64,000 nucleotides of DNA from Streptomyces sp. NBC_00820. GTDB taxonomy: Bacteria; Actinomycetota; Actinomycetes; Streptomycetales; Streptomycetaceae. Under the pieces are notes generated by a model. That model made no database searches, had not been told where the DNA came from, and saw only the letters and a program-made list of their open reading frames with translations. Of this stretch, positions 15,449-64,000 are shown piece by piece. Position 1 is the stretch's first letter. The number at the start of each line of letters is the position of its first letter. The position numbers were made by a program, and so were the translations under genes. The stretch spans positions 3,608,501 to 3,672,500 of the forward strand of contig NZ_CP108882.1 in assembly GCF_036347055.1 (NCBI RefSeq), given 5' to 3'.

Positions 15449-17181
<1,733 letters not shown>

Positions 17182-19586: not shown

Positions 19587-19675
19587 TTGCAACGAGTGGA
19601 ACTCTAGCATCCCGATCCGGGTGCTCGGAAATCCGCTCCCGGACTGGTCAGAGGCGCCGCTTCCCGTCCTGTGAC

Positions 19676-57338: not shown

Positions 57339-57411
57339 GCCTTCGTAGCTCAGGGGATAGAGCACCGCTCTCCTAAAGCGGGTGTCGCAGGTTCGAATCC
57401 TGCCGGGGGCA
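57339..57411 (+). tRNA. tRNA-Arg (anticodon CCT)
   Basis: Acceptor GCCTTCG pairs with CGGGGGC using G:U pairs; the anticodon loop CTCCTAA (CCT) sits on CCGCT/AGCGG; T loop GGTTCGAATCC; discriminator A. No encoded CCA. Its 3' half is the integration target described below. Confidence 0.93.
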
Positions 57412-57540
57412 CAACACGTTAAGCCGCTGACCTGGGGTTTCTCCCCCAGGGAGGCACCCTATTCGGCCTCGGACTCCCCGTCCGGGGCCGTTTGCGTGAG
57501 CGGTGCGTGAGCGGTGCGTGAGCGGACGGGGCGCCAGACC
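57370..57540. repeat. attL-side copy of the 165-bp duplication
   Basis: From the tRNA-Arg anticodon loop through its 3' end and on through the last 110 bp of an integrase gene. It matches 61661-61820 with few changes; this copy has one extra 11-bp unit (gcggtgcgtga). Confidence 0.8.
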
Positions 57541-57890
57541 CCGATATCTCTCCGGATGGATCAGCACCATCCAGCACGCGCTGTGCGCGCGGCACGAGCC
57601 GGGCCGCGGCCTCGGCGATCGCCAGATCCGCCTCGGGAAGCAGGCTCGTGTAGGTGTCGGCCGTGATGGTGATCGAGGAGTGGCCGAGCATCTCCTGGAT
57701 GTCCTTCAGACCGGCCCCGGCCGCGTGGGCCAGCGTTGCCGCGCCGTGGCGGAGGTCGTGGAGCCGGACGGGCGGGAGACCGATCTCCTCGTACAGCTCG
57801 ATGAAGCGCCGTGTGACGTTGGCGGGGTGGAGCATCTCGCCGTTCTCCCTGGTGAAGGCGCGGCCGGTCTCCACCCAGGCGCGCATGAGG
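57419..57890 (-). pseudogene. Tyrosine recombinase (integrase), C-terminal fragment
   Basis: About 155 codons remain. They hold the catalytic part: VETGRAFTRENGEMLHPANVTRRF, HDLRHGAATLAHAAG (H-x-L-R-H), LGHSSITITADTYTSLLPE (H and nucleophile Tyr). The N-terminal DNA-binding half and the first catalytic Arg are missing because an IS3 remnant joins at about 57885. It ends 8 bp from the tRNA-Arg 3' end, the usual place of an integrase beside its att site. Confidence 0.85.
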
Positions 57891-58668
57891 ACCGGCTCCT
57901 GGCCGAACGGATCCGCGAGGTCCACGGCGAGTCCGGCGGCGCCTACGGCTCTCCGCGGGTGACCGCTGAACTCCGCGCGAAGGGCCTGCGAGTCAACGAG
58001 AAGCGGATCGCCCGGGTGATGCGGACGTTCTCCATCACCGGCATCCGCCTGCGCAGACGCGTCCGCACCACTGATCCGGACCCGGCCGCCAGGTTGGTTC
58101 CGGACCTGTTCCAGCGGGACTTCACCGCGGTCGAACCCGGCCTGAAATACATGGGCGACATCACGTATCTCCCTCTCGCGGGCGGTGAGTTCCTCTACCT
58201 CGCGACAGTGCTGGACTGCTTCAGCCGCAAGGTCGTCGGCTGGTCCATCGCCGACCACATGCGCACGGATCTGGTAGCCGACGCTCTGAGGATGACGGCG
58301 GCGACCCGCGGCGGCCTGGACGGGGCGGTGTTCCACTCCGACCACGGAGCCCAATACGGCTCCAGGGCCTTCGCCGACCTCTGCATCCAGCTCGGGGTCA
58401 CCCGGTCGATGGGCGCGGTCGGCACCAGCGCGGACAACGCGGCTTGCGAGAGCTTCCACGCGTCCCTCAAGCGAGAGACCCTCCAGGGCGCCCACGACTA
58501 CGGCGACCCCGCCACCTGCAGAAACAGGGTCTTCGCCTGGCTGACCCGCTACAACACCCGCCGCCGGCACTCCGCCAACGGCCACCTCAGCCCCAACGAA
58601 TACGAACGCCGACACCACACCGCTAAGCTCACGCTCGCCGCGTGATTAACGAAGCGTGTCCACCATCA
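57880..58668 (+). mobile_element. IS3-family insertion sequence remnant, right end
   Basis: The 3' part of an IS3-type element. It contains most of orfB and a plausible right end (GCGTGTCCACCATCA ending near 58668, the complement of the common TGATGGTGGACACGC end). The left end and orfA are absent. Confidence 0.75.
57885..58645 (+). pseudogene. IS3-family transposase OrfB, 5'-truncated
   Basis: About 250 codons in one open frame: AERIREVHGESGGAYGSPRVTAELRAKG, then the rve core with all three catalytic acids (MGDITYLPL, VFHSDHGAQYG, SADNAACESFHASLKRE) and YNTRRRHSANGHLSPNEYE. The first 50-70 residues are replaced by antisense integrase sequence, so no native start exists. Confidence 0.85.
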
Positions 58669-58736
58669 CGGGGGAAGGCCCCTGCATCTCTGTAGGCGAG
58701 TGCGGCATGATCGCCGTCATGTCTTGAGGGGGACTG

Positions 58737-59129
58737 ATGAGTGCCTACATAGCCGCGGCCGTCTTCTTCGGCCTGCTGGGTTTGATCCCGGCCAGGAAGG
58801 CGCATGCCATCCGTCACGTCATAGCCCATGGCGAGCGCGCACGTGGCGTGTGCGACTACGTCACCTGGGACGACGGCGACGCGAGCGCCTGGTGTTCGTT
58901 CGTCACTCCGGACGGCAAGAGCAGACGGGTTGCGGTTCAGGGCTATGGTTCTCCACGATTCGAGGCTGGCGACGTGGTGGAGATCGCCTACTGGAAGGGC
59001 AGGCCGCGTACCGCGGTGGTGGTACAGGACGAGGAGAACTACCGGCGCACCCACCTCGTCGCTGCGATCGTCTGCTCCGTACTGGCCAGCGTTTTCGCGC
59101 TGGCCGCGGTCCTGGCTGCAGCGCTCTAG
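58737..59129 (+). CDS. DUF3592-like membrane protein
   Basis: 130 residues: an N-terminal helix (SAYIAAAVFFGLLGLIPAR), a beta-rich middle (RARGVCDYVTWDDGDASAWCSFVTPDGKSRRVAVQGYGSPRFEAGDVVEIAYWKGRPRTAVV) and a C-terminal helix (HLVAAIVCSVLASVFALAAVLAAAL). The layout resembles DUF3592 proteins. ATG 58737 with GAGGGGGACTG upstream. Intact gene among remnants; cargo of the integrated region. Function unknown. Confidence 0.65.
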   Translation: MSAYIAAAVFFGLLGLIPARKAHAIRHVIAHGERARGVCDYVTWDDGDASAWCSFVTPDGKSRRVAVQGYGSPRFEAGDVVEIAYWKGRPRTAVVVQDEENYRRTHLVAAIVCSVLASVFALAAVLAAAL

Positions 59130-59199
59130 GAACTACGGCAGCGCGACAAGATGCCCACAGTTCTCCGAGATGATTTGCGCTCTCCTGTCTCACCTAAGT

Positions 59200-59751
59200 G
59201 TGAGACGTCATCCGCACCTCGGCGGGCACGGGATCCGCCATCGACCTCTGCTCCACCTGGTCCGCCAGGACCGCGGCTCCGCGGTCGCCAACGAAGTGGC
59301 CCGGCGCATGGTCGTTCCGCCGCACCGCGAGGGCGGACCGGCCCAGTACGCGCGGCCACCCCTCCGGGTGCGCAGGACGAACGACACCCTCACGCCCGTC
59401 CTGGAGCAGGCCCGCAGCCGGCTGCACGAGCAGTTGACGGTGCCGCAGCTCGCCCGCGAGGCGGGGCTGAGCGAGCGCACCTTCGCCCGCCGGTTCCGCG
59501 AGACGCTCGGCACGACGCCCCTGCAGTGGATCCTGCAGGAACGGGTCCGGCTGGCTCAGGAGTTGCTGGAGGAGACCGACGAGCCGGTGGAGAGTGTCGC
59601 GCAGCGCACCGGCTTCGGGAGCGCCGCCAATCTGCGGCACCACTTCGGCCGACTCACCGGGGTCTCTCCCCAGACGTACCGCCACGTCTTCCGTCATCGC
59701 ACGGGACAGCGGCGGAACGGGGTGGCGGCGTCCGGTCCGCGCGCCGAATGA
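59200..59751 (+). pseudogene. GlxA/AraC-type transcriptional regulator, truncated and frameshifted
   Basis: The C-terminal part of a DJ-1/PfpI-AraC fusion regulator. TSAGTGSAIDLC in one frame is followed by LHLVRQDRGSAVANEVARRMVVPPHREGGPAQY in another, so one base is missing near 59260. Then a full AraC HTH (HEQLTVPQLAREAGLSERTFARRFRETLGTTPLQWILQERV... AQRTGFGSAANLRHHFGRLTGVSPQTYRHVF). The N-terminal ligand domain is absent. Confidence 0.8.
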
Positions 59752-59769
59752 GCGGGGGAAGACTTGTTC

Positions 59770-59970
59770 GGCCTCGAACCTCTCGTCCCGGGCCGTTCCG
59801 GCTCGTCATTGCAGGTCGGCCGCGACAGCCGGATGTCCTGCTCGGCCAGTTCGGGTTCGCAGCCCTGGCCGACGTGGTTCTTGTCTCCGATCAGCGTGTG
59901 GCCGGACCCGGAGGCGACAAGTTCCGATTCGGCGGCGAGGAGGTCCAGCGGGGTCTCGCGTTCGTCAGCC
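59770..59970 (-). pseudogene. Transposase fragment (IS982-like)
   Basis: On the minus strand: ADERETPLDLLAAESELVAS, then GHTLIGDKNHVGQGCEPELAEQDIRLSRP. The IGDKNxxG...LxxxxIxLxRP pattern resembles the middle-to-C-terminal part of IS982-family transposases, with several changed key positions (for example LSRP for LLRP). Both ends are lost. Confidence 0.5.
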
Positions 59971-60097
59971 TTGCCTGAGAGGCGTGACCGCGCTCCGCTG
60001 CCGGAATATCGGCCGATGGAGGTCGGTTGGAGACGGCGAACTCAACCGCGTTCTGGAGTACGGAAGTTGACACCCCGGACTGATTTTGGAGGGCTCC

Positions 60098-60682
60098 ATG
60101 GCCCGTTCGTTCCTCTTTCTCCTCGGCAGCGCCCGCGCGGATGGCAACACCGAACTGCTGGCCCGCGCCGCAGCGGAGCAACTGCCGGGCGATACCGAGC
60201 AGCGGTGGCTGGACCTGGCGGAGCTCCGTCTGCCCGACTATGACGACGCGCGCCATTCAGTGGACTCATGGCCGCAGGCGGAAGGCGACGAGGCACTGTT
60301 GTGGGAGGCAACGACGGCTGCCACCGACATCGTGATCGCCTCGCCGCTGTACTGGTACTCCGTGTCGTCCTACGCCAAGCGTTACCTCGACTACTGGTCG
60401 AGGTGGCTGGCCACCCCTGACCCCGGCTTCAAGGCGAAGATGGCCGGGCGCACCCTGTGGGGCGTGACGGCCATGGCACACCGCGAGGAAGTCGTCGCCG
60501 AGCCCTTGATCCTCACCTTGCACCACACCGCGGCATTCATGGGCATGCGATTCGGCGGCGTACTCCTCGGCAATGGCTCCCGGCCCGGCCAGGTGCTCAC
60601 CGACGAACGGGCGGCCTCCCGTGCCAAGACGTTCTTCGCCCAGGAAGCGCCCCTCGCCCGGCTCCCCTTCGAGGAGGAGTGA
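60098..60682 (+). CDS. Flavodoxin-fold NAD(P)H-dependent oxidoreductase
   Basis: 194 residues of the NAD(P)H-quinone/FMN reductase fold: FLFLLGSARADGNTELLARAAAEQL (FMN phosphate loop), ATDIVIASPLYWYSVSSYAKRYLDYWSRWL and KMAGRTLWGVTAMAHREE. ATG 60098 with TTGGAGGGCTCC; TTG 60086 is less likely. Intact, inside the integrated region. Substrate unknown. Confidence 0.82.
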   Translation: MARSFLFLLGSARADGNTELLARAAAEQLPGDTEQRWLDLAELRLPDYDDARHSVDSWPQAEGDEALLWEATTAATDIVIASPLYWYSVSSYAKRYLDYWSRWLATPDPGFKAKMAGRTLWGVTAMAHREEVVAEPLILTLHHTAAFMGMRFGGVLLGNGSRPGQVLTDERAASRAKTFFAQEAPLARLPFEEE

Positions 60683-60728
60683 CAAGGCACCGGAACGCGC
60701 GGGTTCCCGCCCTACGATCCGCGGCTGA

Positions 60729-61065
60729 TGGTGCGCCTGCTGGTCTACGGCACACCACTGGGGTCCGCTCCTCCCGTGCGATCGAGCGCAAGTTGTGGAC
60801 GATGTCGCTTTCCGGTTCCTGGCTGCCGACCAGGGCCCGGACTACCGGTCGATCGCCCGGTTCCGCCTCCATCTGGACGCCGTCGCGGAACTGTTCTCCC
60901 AGTGCCTGCACCTGGCCCGGAGGCTGGGCATGGTCAAGATGGGCCGCGTCGCCGTGGACGGCACGAAGTTGAAGGCCAACACCTCCAAGTACAAGGCGAT
61001 GAGCTACGGACGGCTGACAGCGGAAGAAGAGCACGTCGAGGCCGAGATCACCGAGCTGGAAGCCA
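60729..61065 (+). pseudogene. IS1182-like transposase remnant
   Basis: Pieces in three frames: LLVYG, then TGVRSSRAIERKLW, then DVAFRFLAADQGPDYRSIARFRLHLDAVAELFSQCLHLARRLGMVKMGRVAVDGTKLKANTSKYKAMSYGRLTAEEEHVEAEI. These follow the N-terminal half of IS1182-type transposases with at least two frameshifts. It joins a DUF899 fragment at about 61066. Confidence 0.7.
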
Positions 61066-61340
61066 AGGCCACAGCCTTCACACTGGTCCGCGGCGGGGCG
61101 GCCGTCGTGCCACATGTGATAGGACACGAACAGCTGGGTGAGGCCCTCGAAGACGTCGACCAGGGGGACGGCTCCGTCGCCTCCGACGAGCGGAGTCGAC
61201 GGGTCCACCTCGGTCATGGGCAGCCGTCGCCGTACGGCGGCGATCGCGTCGCCCTCCCGGGTGTGCGCCTTCTCCCGGCCTCGCAGAGCGTCGATTGCGG
61301 CCAGCCACTCCGTGCGGGAGGCGACCGGCGGCGTGTTCAT
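61066..61340 (-). pseudogene. DUF899 (thioredoxin-like) gene, N-terminal fragment
   Basis: MNTPPVASRTEWLAAIDALRGREKAHTREGDAIAAVRRRLPMTEVD ... LVDVFEGLTQLFVSYHMWHDGRPAADQCEGC. The first 90 residues of a DUF899 protein, up to the conserved QCEGC. It is then replaced by antisense transposase sequence, so the catalytic fold is lost. Confidence 0.75.
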
Positions 61341-61660
61341 TGCAGTCATGTCCGTACCGACCCGGCAACCCGCAAGAACTCATCGTTCGACTGTTCAAGA
61401 CCGCCGAACAGAATGCGGACGCCTTCTCACTCCTACGCATATTGGGAGGCGCGCCGTTGTCGGCGGCAGATCGGCGGATGCCCCCCTGGTGCCCTGCGGA
61501 GAGCCCACACTCACATCCCTCTGTGCGTGCGCGATGCGTGAGCGGACTGTTCCGCACGAGGCGTCATGAGCCGGATCGCGTACGGAGCCGCGCGGCGCTG
61601 ACCAGGCGAGACAGCACCACGCGGCAGCATCGGACATTCCCCGGCAAGGATTCGATCCCA
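61341..61660. other. Remnant DNA without a recognisable gene
   Basis: Between the DUF899 fragment and the distal tRNA copy. Open frames here are short or antisense-like and show no family motif. Confidence 0.5.
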
Positions 61661-61820
61661 CTCCTGAAGCGGGTGTCGCAGGTTCGAATCCTGCCGGGGG
61701 CACAACGCATTAAGTCGCTGACCTGGGGTTTCTCCCCCAGGGAGACACCCTATTCGGCCTCGGACTCCCCGTCCGGGGCCGTTTGCGTGAGCGGTGCGTG
61801 AGCGGACGGGGCGCCAGCCC
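61661..61820. repeat. attR-side copy of the duplication with partial tRNA-Arg
   Basis: Carries the tRNA-Arg 3' half (from the anticodon loop; 61666-61702) without its 5' half, then the 3' end of a second integrase gene on the minus strand, ending RNPRSAT in the same frame as the first copy. Homology stops near 61820. Confidence 0.8.
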
Positions 61821-61862
61821 CCGAGATTTGGAAAGAGTGCTGGTCGCCGACCACAGATGTGT

Positions 61863-62408
61863 CTAGACGTGGCGAGGATCCGGGCTGAGGATGGCTGGAT
61901 CCTCGGATCGCAGCCGGAACTTTGCATGGACTCCCAGGCTGTTGCGTGCGGCGATGTAGAAATCGTCACGCTTCCCCTGGAACTCCCGGAACGCCCTCAT
62001 CCAATCGTCTGGCGTACCTGGACGCATGTCCCGAACGAACTGTTCCAGTACCCAGGCATGCCGCTGCAAAGACCTGGCTGCCGAGATGGTCTCCGCTTCT
62101 CCCACGAGGAGCACGGCCTCGAACGCGTAGCCACGCTCAAGCTCAGCTTCGGCCAGCAGCTCCAGGCCGGCCTCCCTGGCGAGTGGCTGCGGCAGGTCGA
62201 AGAGTCCCTTACCTGCAGCCAGACGGCCCGCCAGCGAGGTGAACCTCTTGATCGCGTCGGCATACCGGAGATAGCACTCCAGGCGGCGTTCGTCCCACCG
62301 TGTGGAAAGTTGGCGCCGCCACCGAGATCTCTCCGTCAAGGCTCCGCCGACGTAGGACGCAACCGCGCCGACGAGCACACCGATCAAGGTGAATAGCTGT
62401 CCCGACAT
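61863..62408 (-). CDS. Hypothetical membrane-anchored protein
   Basis: 181 residues. An N-terminal helix (SGQLFTLIGVLVGAVASYVGGAL) is followed by a long helical cytoplasmic part (TERSRWRRQLSTRWDERRLECYLRYADAIKRFTSLAGRLAAG...). This is a pattern common in small uncharacterised Streptomyces proteins often found in accessory DNA. ATG 62408 has a G-rich site upstream; longer frames add no similarity. Function unknown. Confidence 0.6.
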   Translation of the reverse strand: MSGQLFTLIGVLVGAVASYVGGALTERSRWRRQLSTRWDERRLECYLRYADAIKRFTSLAGRLAAGKGLFDLPQPLAREAGLELLAEAELERGYAFEAVLLVGEAETISAARSLQRHAWVLEQFVRDMRPGTPDDWMRAFREFQGKRDDFYIAARNSLGVHAKFRLRSEDPAILSPDPRHV

Positions 62409-63377
62409 GCCCCCGCCGATCGTGTATCTGCCAGGAGGGACCATACGGCCGGAGACTCTGATGCGTAAGGGCCTCGGGAGGCTGGTACGAGAGCTGAAGG
62501 GTCTCTCAGCGGAGCCGGGATCAACAGCCGGATGCCACTGCACCTTCAGAGCCCTCGTACAGTTGCTGTACAGCAGCGAAGTACAGCAATCCCAGCAACT
62601 GGCAGCGCCCAAGACTGCCTCTCATCGGCCTCCCGGCAGCCCTTATGACCTTCAACGTCCGATCTCTTGCGCGGACAATCGCGAGGGCCGTCAGGGACGG
62701 TGCACGGTGGTCAACAGGGGGTGCACCTGGACCGGTGGAACTGCCCCCTCGGCGCCTTGCGGACGCAGCTTGTCGAACTCCCGAGCCGCTAGCCGGTGCT
62801 CAGCGGCCTCTACAGGGCCGCGTAGACGGCCGAGGGCCTCGACCGCTGATGGGGGCGGGGCCTTTGTCGCCCCCAAAGGGTCTGCGGTGCTCACCGCTTC
62901 GCCCTTCCCAGCCGGCCTCAGCCGACTCTCCCGCCCTCGTCCCCACGGCTACATGGAGCCCTCATGGGAACGGAAGGCCAAGCAGAGACAGGGGAGGATC
63001 AGACGAGGCCGGAAGCCCCCACCCCGCTGATCGGTCCGGTCTTCGCCCTGGCGGCCGGAGCCGGGGATTTACGGACCCGCAGGGTCTGGACAACATTATA
63101 TCTGCAATCGCGGGGTAAGAATTTTACGAAACGTGCGGACAGTTTCTTTGCAGTAATGAACAGAGTGGAATTATTCAACGCACACGGACCGCAACAGCGT
63201 GCTACTGTCGACCCCAGTTGCAGTCGTGGTTCCCGAATTCCAAGTTCCTCTCAGTCGACTTCTGCGTCACTGGAAGTGCTTTTTGGCACCGGTCTTTTTC
63301 CGGGCGGGGTGATCATCGCGGCGACACGGCATCCGTACAGTGCGAATGCCGACTCACTGCCCCGAAGGAGACAAGAC
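62409..63377. other. Gene-poor region, AT-rich at its right end
   Basis: A minus-strand frame at 62691-62894 (67 codons; AVEALGRLRGPVEAAEHRLAAREFDKLRPQ) could code a small helical peptide but lacks a good ribosome site. From about 63090 to 63320 the DNA is markedly AT-rich (ACATTATATCTGC, GAATTTTACG, GGAATTATTC) and presumably contains the cold-shock promoter and leader. No other gene seen. Confidence 0.45.
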
Positions 63378-63581
63378 ATGGCTACTGGCACCGTGAAGTG
63401 GTTCAACGCGGAAAAGGGATTCGGCTTCATCGAGCAGGACGGTGGCGGCGCTGACGTGTTCGCCCACTACTCGAACATCGCCGCCCAGGGCTTCCGCGAG
63501 CTGCTCGAAGGCCAGAAGGTGAGCTTCGACATCGCGCAGGGGCAGAAGGGTCCGACGGCCGAGAACATCGTTCCCGCCTGA
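63378..63581 (+). CDS. Cold-shock protein, CspA family
   Basis: 67 residues. RNP1 (KGFGFIE) and RNP2 (VFAHYS) are intact; [23 protein letters not shown] opens as usual. It binds single-stranded RNA/DNA as a chaperone. ATG 63378 with GAAGGAGACAAGAC. A strong terminator follows, and a DEAD-box helicase gene starts 276 bp downstream, a common Streptomyces pairing. Confidence 0.95.
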
Positions 63582-63596
63582 CGCCGACGCGCACTT

Positions 63597-63640
63597 TGCA
63601 GCTGGGGCCCGCATCCTTCGGGGTGCGGGCCCCAGCTGCA
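63597..63640 (+). terminator. Terminator hairpin after the cold-shock gene
   Basis: A perfect 17-bp stem TGCAGCTGGGGCCCGCA and its complement at 63624-63640 with a 10-nt loop, 15 bp past the stop. Confidence 0.9.
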
Positions 63641-63857
63641 CGTACTTCCCGCAGCGGTTTCTCCTGCGGGACGACTGCGAGGGATCCGCAGGCTTAAGCA
63701 CACGGATTCCCTTTCGAGGATGCCCACACATCTCCTCTCGACCGTATCGCAGCGCACGATTTACTTTCGCGTTCCATTCGGCCCATTCTTGCAATTCTCC
63801 ACGCCGCTCCCTGCTGCGGGAATTCCTTGATATGTGCCGCATCGAGGAAGGTTCCGC

Positions 63858-64000
63858 ATGAACCGCACACGCACGAACGACCGCTTCGCCCGCACTCGGA
63901 ACGGCAGCGCCGCCCCCGGGAAGAATGGCAACCGGTTCGGCTCATCGCCCCCGAGCCGCTCCGGCGGACCGATCCGTTCCAACGGTCACAGCCGCCGCCC
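63858..64000 (+). CDS. DEAD-box RNA helicase, N-terminal part (cut by window end)
   Basis: The first 47 codons: MNRTRTNDRFARTRNGSAAP... GNRFGSSPPSRSGGPIRSNGHSRRP. This Arg/Ser/Gly-rich leader is the one seen before the helicase core of Streptomyces DEAD/DEAH proteins encoded next to cold-shock genes. ATG 63858 with GAGGAAGGTTCCGC. The helicase motifs lie beyond the window, so the call rests on the leader and context. Confidence 0.6.
   Translation, partial: MNRTRTNDRFARTRNGSAAPGKNGNRFGSSPPSRSGGPIRSNGHSRR

Follow-up and report, generated by a model that had tools for sequence, protein, structure and literature searches.

The 64-kb stretch G000:C1:3608501-3672500 of an 8.1-Mb Streptomyces genome (the window, whose coordinates are used throughout) contains an integration hotspot at a tRNA-Arg(CCT) gene. 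The region is very probably the tRNA-proximal part of an accretion island, in which the left unit is the remnant of an element with a tyrosine integrase of one family (family A) and a second family-A element lies in tandem with it. Behind the single tRNA, at least two attachment site (att) copies stand in direct order, together with remnants of more than one integrase (families A and C), and tandem integration is supported. The left unit (57370-61703) is best read as a remnant resembling a cis-mobilizable element (CIME): it has no working integrase gene and retains both attL and attR (cores and arms at 57370-57525 and 61524-61703). The features concerned are the following.

57339..57412, + strand: intact tRNA-Arg(CCT) gene (ARAGORN), at which the island starts on its left side
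57370..57412, + strand: left att core, 43 bp of the tRNA 3′ half joined to the tRNA 5′ half, attL-like
57459..57882, − strand: 3′ fragment of a family-A integrase gene, residues ~398-557 of the relative, frame shifted at the 11-bp units
57493..57525, + strand: three 11-bp units TGCGTGAGCGG, putative P′ arm-type sites, inside the integrase 3′ end
61524..61545, + strand: distal (P) arm pair, 2 and 0 mismatches, 137 and 126 bp ahead of the right core
61661..61703, + strand: right att core without the tRNA 5′ half, arms on both sides, attP-like junction
61750..61827, − strand: final 25 codons of a second family-A integrase, canonical frame (tblastn)
61784..61805, + strand: P′ arm pair, +81 and +92 past the right core

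Direct repeat and family-A integrase remnants

As a preliminary description of this DNA had proposed, the tRNA 3′ half recurs about 4.3 kb away. The direct repeat (57370-57514 and 61661-61805) spans 145 nt at 97% identity with a spacing of 4291 bp and consists of 43 bases of the tRNA 3′ end and 102 further bases. In a whole-genome search with gaps allowed, the right copy is recovered with E = 1.9e-65 (90% over query positions 32-209), and the similarity is far beyond chance. A tRNA-Phe called by ARAGORN at 61638-61701 is spurious and overlaps the copied tRNA-Arg 3′ half.

Beyond the tRNA, both copies match the final codons of a family-A tyrosine integrase gene, in agreement with the earlier placement of such an integrase beside att. 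With the intact 557-aa integrase of genome G020 (L051:10116-11789) as the tblastn query, the left copy matches residues 399-547 and 530-557, and the right copy matches residues 533-557. The left fragment retains residues 398-498 at 94% identity, and its 5′ side is replaced by sequence of the insertion sequence (IS) family IS3 from 57888. A search of the genome turned up no intact family-A integrase: the query has five matches in all, and the sole long one outside the locus is 39% identical (0.83 Mb).

A scan of genome contigs for family-A integrases yields 56 loci, of which 23 are near-full-length (95% or more of the query covered) and 33 are partial. The integrase frame of the right copy ends in ...GAPSAHAPLTQTAPDGESEAE*, as in intact relatives, and the canonical C-terminus read from this copy is ...APLTQTAPDGESEAE*. 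The left copy harbors three 11-bp units versus mostly two in the relatives; the extra unit shifts the frame and thereby produces the reading “...RNPRSAA”. The “RNPRSA” C-terminus given in the preliminary description is this out-of-frame reading and is not upheld. Integrases ending in RNPRS, INPRS, or RNPRP occur in 4 of the 33 partial relatives (L100, L117, L120, and L128) and in none of the 23 near-full-length ones; because they are found only in partial relatives, such ends go with decayed copies.

Known integrases do match the shared end. No close full-length relative is present in the plasmid collection (46% identity across 85% of the query, or 76% across 27%) or in the phage collection (TurkishDelight, 50% over 85% of the query). 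At the DNA level, 57370-57570 matches 17 plasmid records, with the core part only in the best 8 of the 17.

Further cores lie beyond the window in L035 (window coordinate = L035 position + 51499) at 16324-16366 (100%), 17086-17118 (97%, 33 bp), and 19593-19632 (85%, 40 bp). Their window-equivalents are 67823, 68585, and 71092, all within 7.2 kb past the window end, and a weak 25-bp core match is seen at L035 16720. A remnant of a family-C integrase (L035 16467-16577, 65%, E = 2.9e-9) lies beside core 16324, and the stretch upstream of this core recurs at cores of L077, L112, L117, L122, and L048. The earlier proposal of related elements in tandem is supported by the att cores, the integrase remnants, and the relatives at the same tRNA, but a “pair” is too few for these further copies and for at least two integrase families. 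Nor can it be said that nearly all of the distal element has been lost, given the 6.1 kb that separates the second from the third core copy.

Arm-type repeats at the cores

The arm unit is defined as TGCGTGAGCGG with at most two mismatches, and a pair as two units 11 bp apart. Arm pairs in the window are restricted to 57493-57525, 61524-61545, and 61784-61805; a set of 20 Markov windows contains no such pair. A survey of cores (78 rows, two of which were dropped for being shorter than 30 bp) comprises 40 tRNA-bearing and 36 tRNA-less cores, with L051 and L075 representing one and the same locus. The survey is enriched for family A, many loci having been fetched for holding it, so that its counts are not prevalences. 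A P′ pair at about +81/+92 after the core accompanies 22 of the 40 tRNA-bearing and 11 of the 36 tRNA-less cores, and a P pair at about −137/−126 before the core is found at 11 of the 36 tRNA-less and at none of the 40 tRNA-bearing cores. Both pairs at one core are seen only at window position 61661 and in a further copy in this genome, at 7.8966 Mb. Where two elements of one family lie in tandem, a core with both arm pairs is expected at their junction.

The copy at 7.8966 Mb (L037 10587-10923, G000:C1) is a second attP-like block, harboring arms, a core, and the last 37 integrase codons. It is 84% identical over 307 bp to 61525-61827, is distant from tRNA-Arg(CCT), and lacks the tRNA 5′ half.

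Fifteen family-A relatives at tRNA-Thr or tRNA-Lys were examined, in some of which the tRNA lies kilobases off. An arm pair is present near the integrase stop codon in nine (L090, L094, L095, L096, L098, L099, L102, L107, and L111) and a single unit in one (L119); in L098 and L099, the pair is positioned past the stop codon. Because pairs are kept at other tRNAs, or past the stop codon in these two, the 11-bp repeats behave as DNA sites, and they may be bound by the integrase. The preliminary description had taken the 110 bp shared beyond the tRNA as the end of an integrase gene. The last integrase codons are indeed present; however, the segment is attachment-site DNA as much as a gene remnant, because paired 11-bp repeats flank the cores at fixed distances and also because some relatives keep the repeats beside a different tRNA or downstream of the stop codon.

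A tentative and rather doubtful extension is that the 11-bp repeats serve both as putative integrase arm sites and as codons for the integrase C-terminal tail, such that slippage of one unit would alter DNA site and protein tail at once. The attachment site itself would then persist in such islands, with integrase genes worn to their arm-bearing end, leaving complete attP-like junctions for a later family-A integrase to pick up cargo. Among the titles listed by a literature search, none concerns arm sites inside a Streptomyces integrase gene; no priority is claimed.

Relatives at the same tRNA and alternative explanations

Among the 23 near-full-length relatives, the core lies 44-56 bp past the integrase stop codon in 14 (10 with a whole tRNA and 4 with the core only). 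The stop codon adjoins tRNA-Arg(CCT) with a diverged core in two (L082 and L086), and tRNA-Arg is more distant in another two (3.5 kb in L084 and 4.1 kb in L092). Other targets are tRNA-Thr (four relatives) and tRNA-Lys (one). Family-A cores lacking the tRNA 5′ half are found beside near-full-length integrases in L075, L077, and L089. In S. albus (L078), Relaxase, MobC, and DUF2637 genes lie beside the family-A integrase; with integrase, Relaxase, and MobC within 10 kb, this one relative is predicted to be an integrative and mobilizable element (IME).

Arrays occur elsewhere. In G023, the integrase-A gene at the tRNA is broken in frame near residue 291, and another core lies at a distance of 20.3 kb. 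In G020, the tRNA and an integrase of family B share one contig. A different contig carries the intact integrase A next to a core that lacks the tRNA 5′ half, and one more core follows after 33.8 kb; the genes at the flanks, an M6 peptidase and a symporter, fit one interrupted array. Across 61 Streptomyces genomes, the tRNA 3′ half (at most three mismatches) is present in 55, once in 32 and in two or more copies in 23, and is absent from 6, while the reversed-pattern control gives 0 of 61. A regular expression applied to the first 0.7-1.7 kb of DNA downstream of 31 tRNA loci found an integrase at 10, only false frames at 3 (G005, G034, and G027), and none at 18, and missed one in G032 that another search found. 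The integrase types ending near the tRNA in relatives are A, diverged A, B, and C; type D lies 0.55-0.65 kb from the tRNA.

No insertion-free genome carrying both copies was encountered, although only some of the single-copy sites were read. Among these, G015, G016, and G029, each with a single core, lack the 102-bp extension, and different DNA follows the tRNA. In G015 and G016, neither tblastn nor the regular expression that missed the one in G032 detected an integrase next to the tRNA, and the site of G029 holds a 22-residue integrase-C remnant. In G005, G009, and G028, in contrast, the one core is followed by 79 bp or more of the extension; family-A remnants are present in G009 and a distant piece in G028.

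From these observations, we infer an order of events and whatever mobility may remain. Family-A elements would have inserted by recombination between the tRNA 3′ half and the copy that each element carried, so that the tRNA stayed intact. Integration of a second family-A element beside the first would have formed the full attP-like junction (distal arms, core, and integrase-side arms) at 61524-61827. Elements with another integrase may have taken the same site further out, and most genes would afterwards have decayed via IS insertions and deletions. A later family-A integrase could in principle excise the remnant 57370-61703. The locus illustrates how decayed islands retain attachment sites that might still be mobilised. 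The core, presumed arm sites, integrase family, and remnants make up a clear map of one integration hotspot that is comparable across many Streptomyces, and the short sites named here are directly testable.

Several points weigh against tandem family-A elements. No arm unit is found in 5 of the 15 relatives at tRNA-Thr or tRNA-Lys (L101, L104, L105, L106, and L109), so the pair is not universal, and a diverged-A integrase at tRNA-Arg in G025 is likewise without it. In G005, 79 bp of extension (90%) follow the tRNA, and tblastn finds no integrase remnant. The cores at L035 17086 and 19593 are partial or diverged, and the right chromosomal boundary is bracketed only, between window-equivalents 71.1 and 73.0 kb. 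That both ends were once parts of complete elements is read from the ends themselves, as no family-A interior (relaxase or MobC) is recognised in the scanned window proteins. Finally, the left and right copies are identical at 98 of 102 positions past the core, with the next best at 94, which duplication or gene conversion would fit too.

This last point bears on the explanation that no second integration took place and that duplication or conversion made the 300-bp block 61524-61827 as a copy of some attachment site of the same genome. The two copies are mutual nearest relatives over the 102 bp past the core, and the 84% identical 307-bp block at 7.8966 Mb, away from tRNA-Arg(CCT), would be in keeping with such copying. 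However, the left copy lacks distal arms and thus could not have given rise to the complete block, equally similar pairs amount to 10 of 946 among 44 family sequences (the left/right pair included), and L075, L077, and L089 show that cores without the tRNA 5′ half stand beside near-full-length family-A integrases elsewhere. Copying of the block is considered unlikely. It is distinctly unlikely that the tRNA was used twice independently and that the right integrase end was imported by homologous recombination between islands: this requires more events than tandem integration, even though islands at tRNA-Arg(CCT) look mosaic (63167-66175 is 80% identical to the island of G012).

Long segments of attP/attB identity occur in some actinomycete elements. 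A single element could accordingly be imagined, the right copy being its normal attR and the long identity stemming from a chromosome that carried the tRNA and ~100 bp identical to attP, and the extension of G005, with no integrase remnant found, would suit it. The one-core sites of G015, G016, and G029 are nevertheless without the extension, which in many elements carries the last integrase codons and usually the arm repeats, making a single element very improbable. Tandem integration of family-A elements is the reading retained here.

Accretion at tRNA-Arg in Streptomyces is a known phenomenon and already published (PMC9513070 and PMC3218068). PMC9513070 describes a tRNA-Arg accretion site in a Streptomyces rhizosphere population with several integrases and an old remnant. 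The target, the elements with different integrases between the same repeats, and the old remnant resemble the present case; in contrast, those elements are actinomycete integrative and conjugative elements (AICEs) or defective AICEs with traB, whereas no transfer gene is recognised here, and the comparison is made at the level of tRNA-Arg, which may not be the same gene. S. avermitilis harbors Sav3708 and Sav3728 in tandem in a tRNA-Arg gene (PMC3218068). They share with the present case the two tandem elements at tRNA-Arg and integrases of two sub-families but are both AICEs according to that source, and they are compared at the tRNA-Arg level, not by anticodon. As PMC5704250 defines it, a CIME has lost its integration genes, keeps attL and attR, and can lie in tandem with other elements; the left unit, its integrase reduced to a fragment, appears to share these features. 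The differences are that one boundary is a full attP-like junction and that mobilization is putative. The S. albus NRRL F-4971 element (L078) has the same integrase family, arms, core, and tRNA but possesses a near-full-length integrase, a relaxase, and MobC, none of which is recognised in the window remnant.

Gene content of the left unit and the outer island

Between the two cores, the following genes and fragments are found.

57888..58645, + strand: fragment of an IS3-family transposase (rve, HTH_21) that lacks the N-terminal third of the family model
58737..59129, + strand: intact 130-aa open reading frame (ORF) that matches neither Pfam nor NCBIfam at E 0.01
59179..59751, + strand: C-terminal part of an FtrA-like regulator of the AraC type, without the N-terminal half
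60101..60682, + strand: intact 193-aa NADPH-dependent FMN reductase/flavodoxin-fold gene, cargo
60795..61118, + strand: IS1182-family transposase fragment, E = 1.6e-21 (below the family cut-off), no Pfam match
61098..61349, − strand: N-terminal fragment of a DUF899 gene

The heavy decay noted in the preliminary description is thus confirmed: fragments of IS3 and IS1182 transposases surround two small genes that are intact. No relaxase, MobC, transfer gene, traB, or rep is recognised among eight window proteins scanned, and the AICE set (traB-type transfer gene, rep, and int) is not recognised among seven island or flanking proteins scanned. Immediately past the second integrase remnant, the minus strand carries a 249-aa ORF (61863-62612) that has no Pfam or NCBIfam match.

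The distance from the tRNA to the symporter is 28.3 kb here and ranges from 11.8 to 60.5 kb over 17 genomes including this one. These distances were read by hand where tRNA and symporter lie on one contig less than 100 kb apart, leaving out a G010 match (59% identical, 2.4 Mb away); matches to the flanking genes (M6 peptidase and symporter) and to the gene block below are hits, not proven orthologues. Downstream of core 19593, the sequence is 76-77% identical over 79-115 bp to post-tRNA DNA of G016 and G027 and to the second core of G004. This resemblance is weak evidence for a chromosomal junction because integrase-B ends carry similar terminators. Synteny with G016 restarts at window-equivalent 73.0 kb.

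Between the second and third cores (63167-64000 and L035 11668-15576) lie cold-shock and DEAD-box helicase genes (both named by eye) and CBS, SCO5918-family, and MerR-like genes. The block 63167-66175 gives the 80% match to the tRNA-Arg island of G012, and parts of the csp-DEAD-CBS-SCO5918 block also occur at G000 7.906 Mb and in other genomes. A similar block lies about 10 kb from the 7.9-Mb attP-like block; a tie between this gene block and family-A sites was considered and rejected, as no core is present in the sequence examined around such blocks elsewhere (L132, L133, L134, L142, L143, and L144), two of these six stretches being short contigs. Between the last two cores, L035 17215-18335 encodes a Sulf_transp (YeeE/YedE-type) protein and an adjacent putative membrane ORF.

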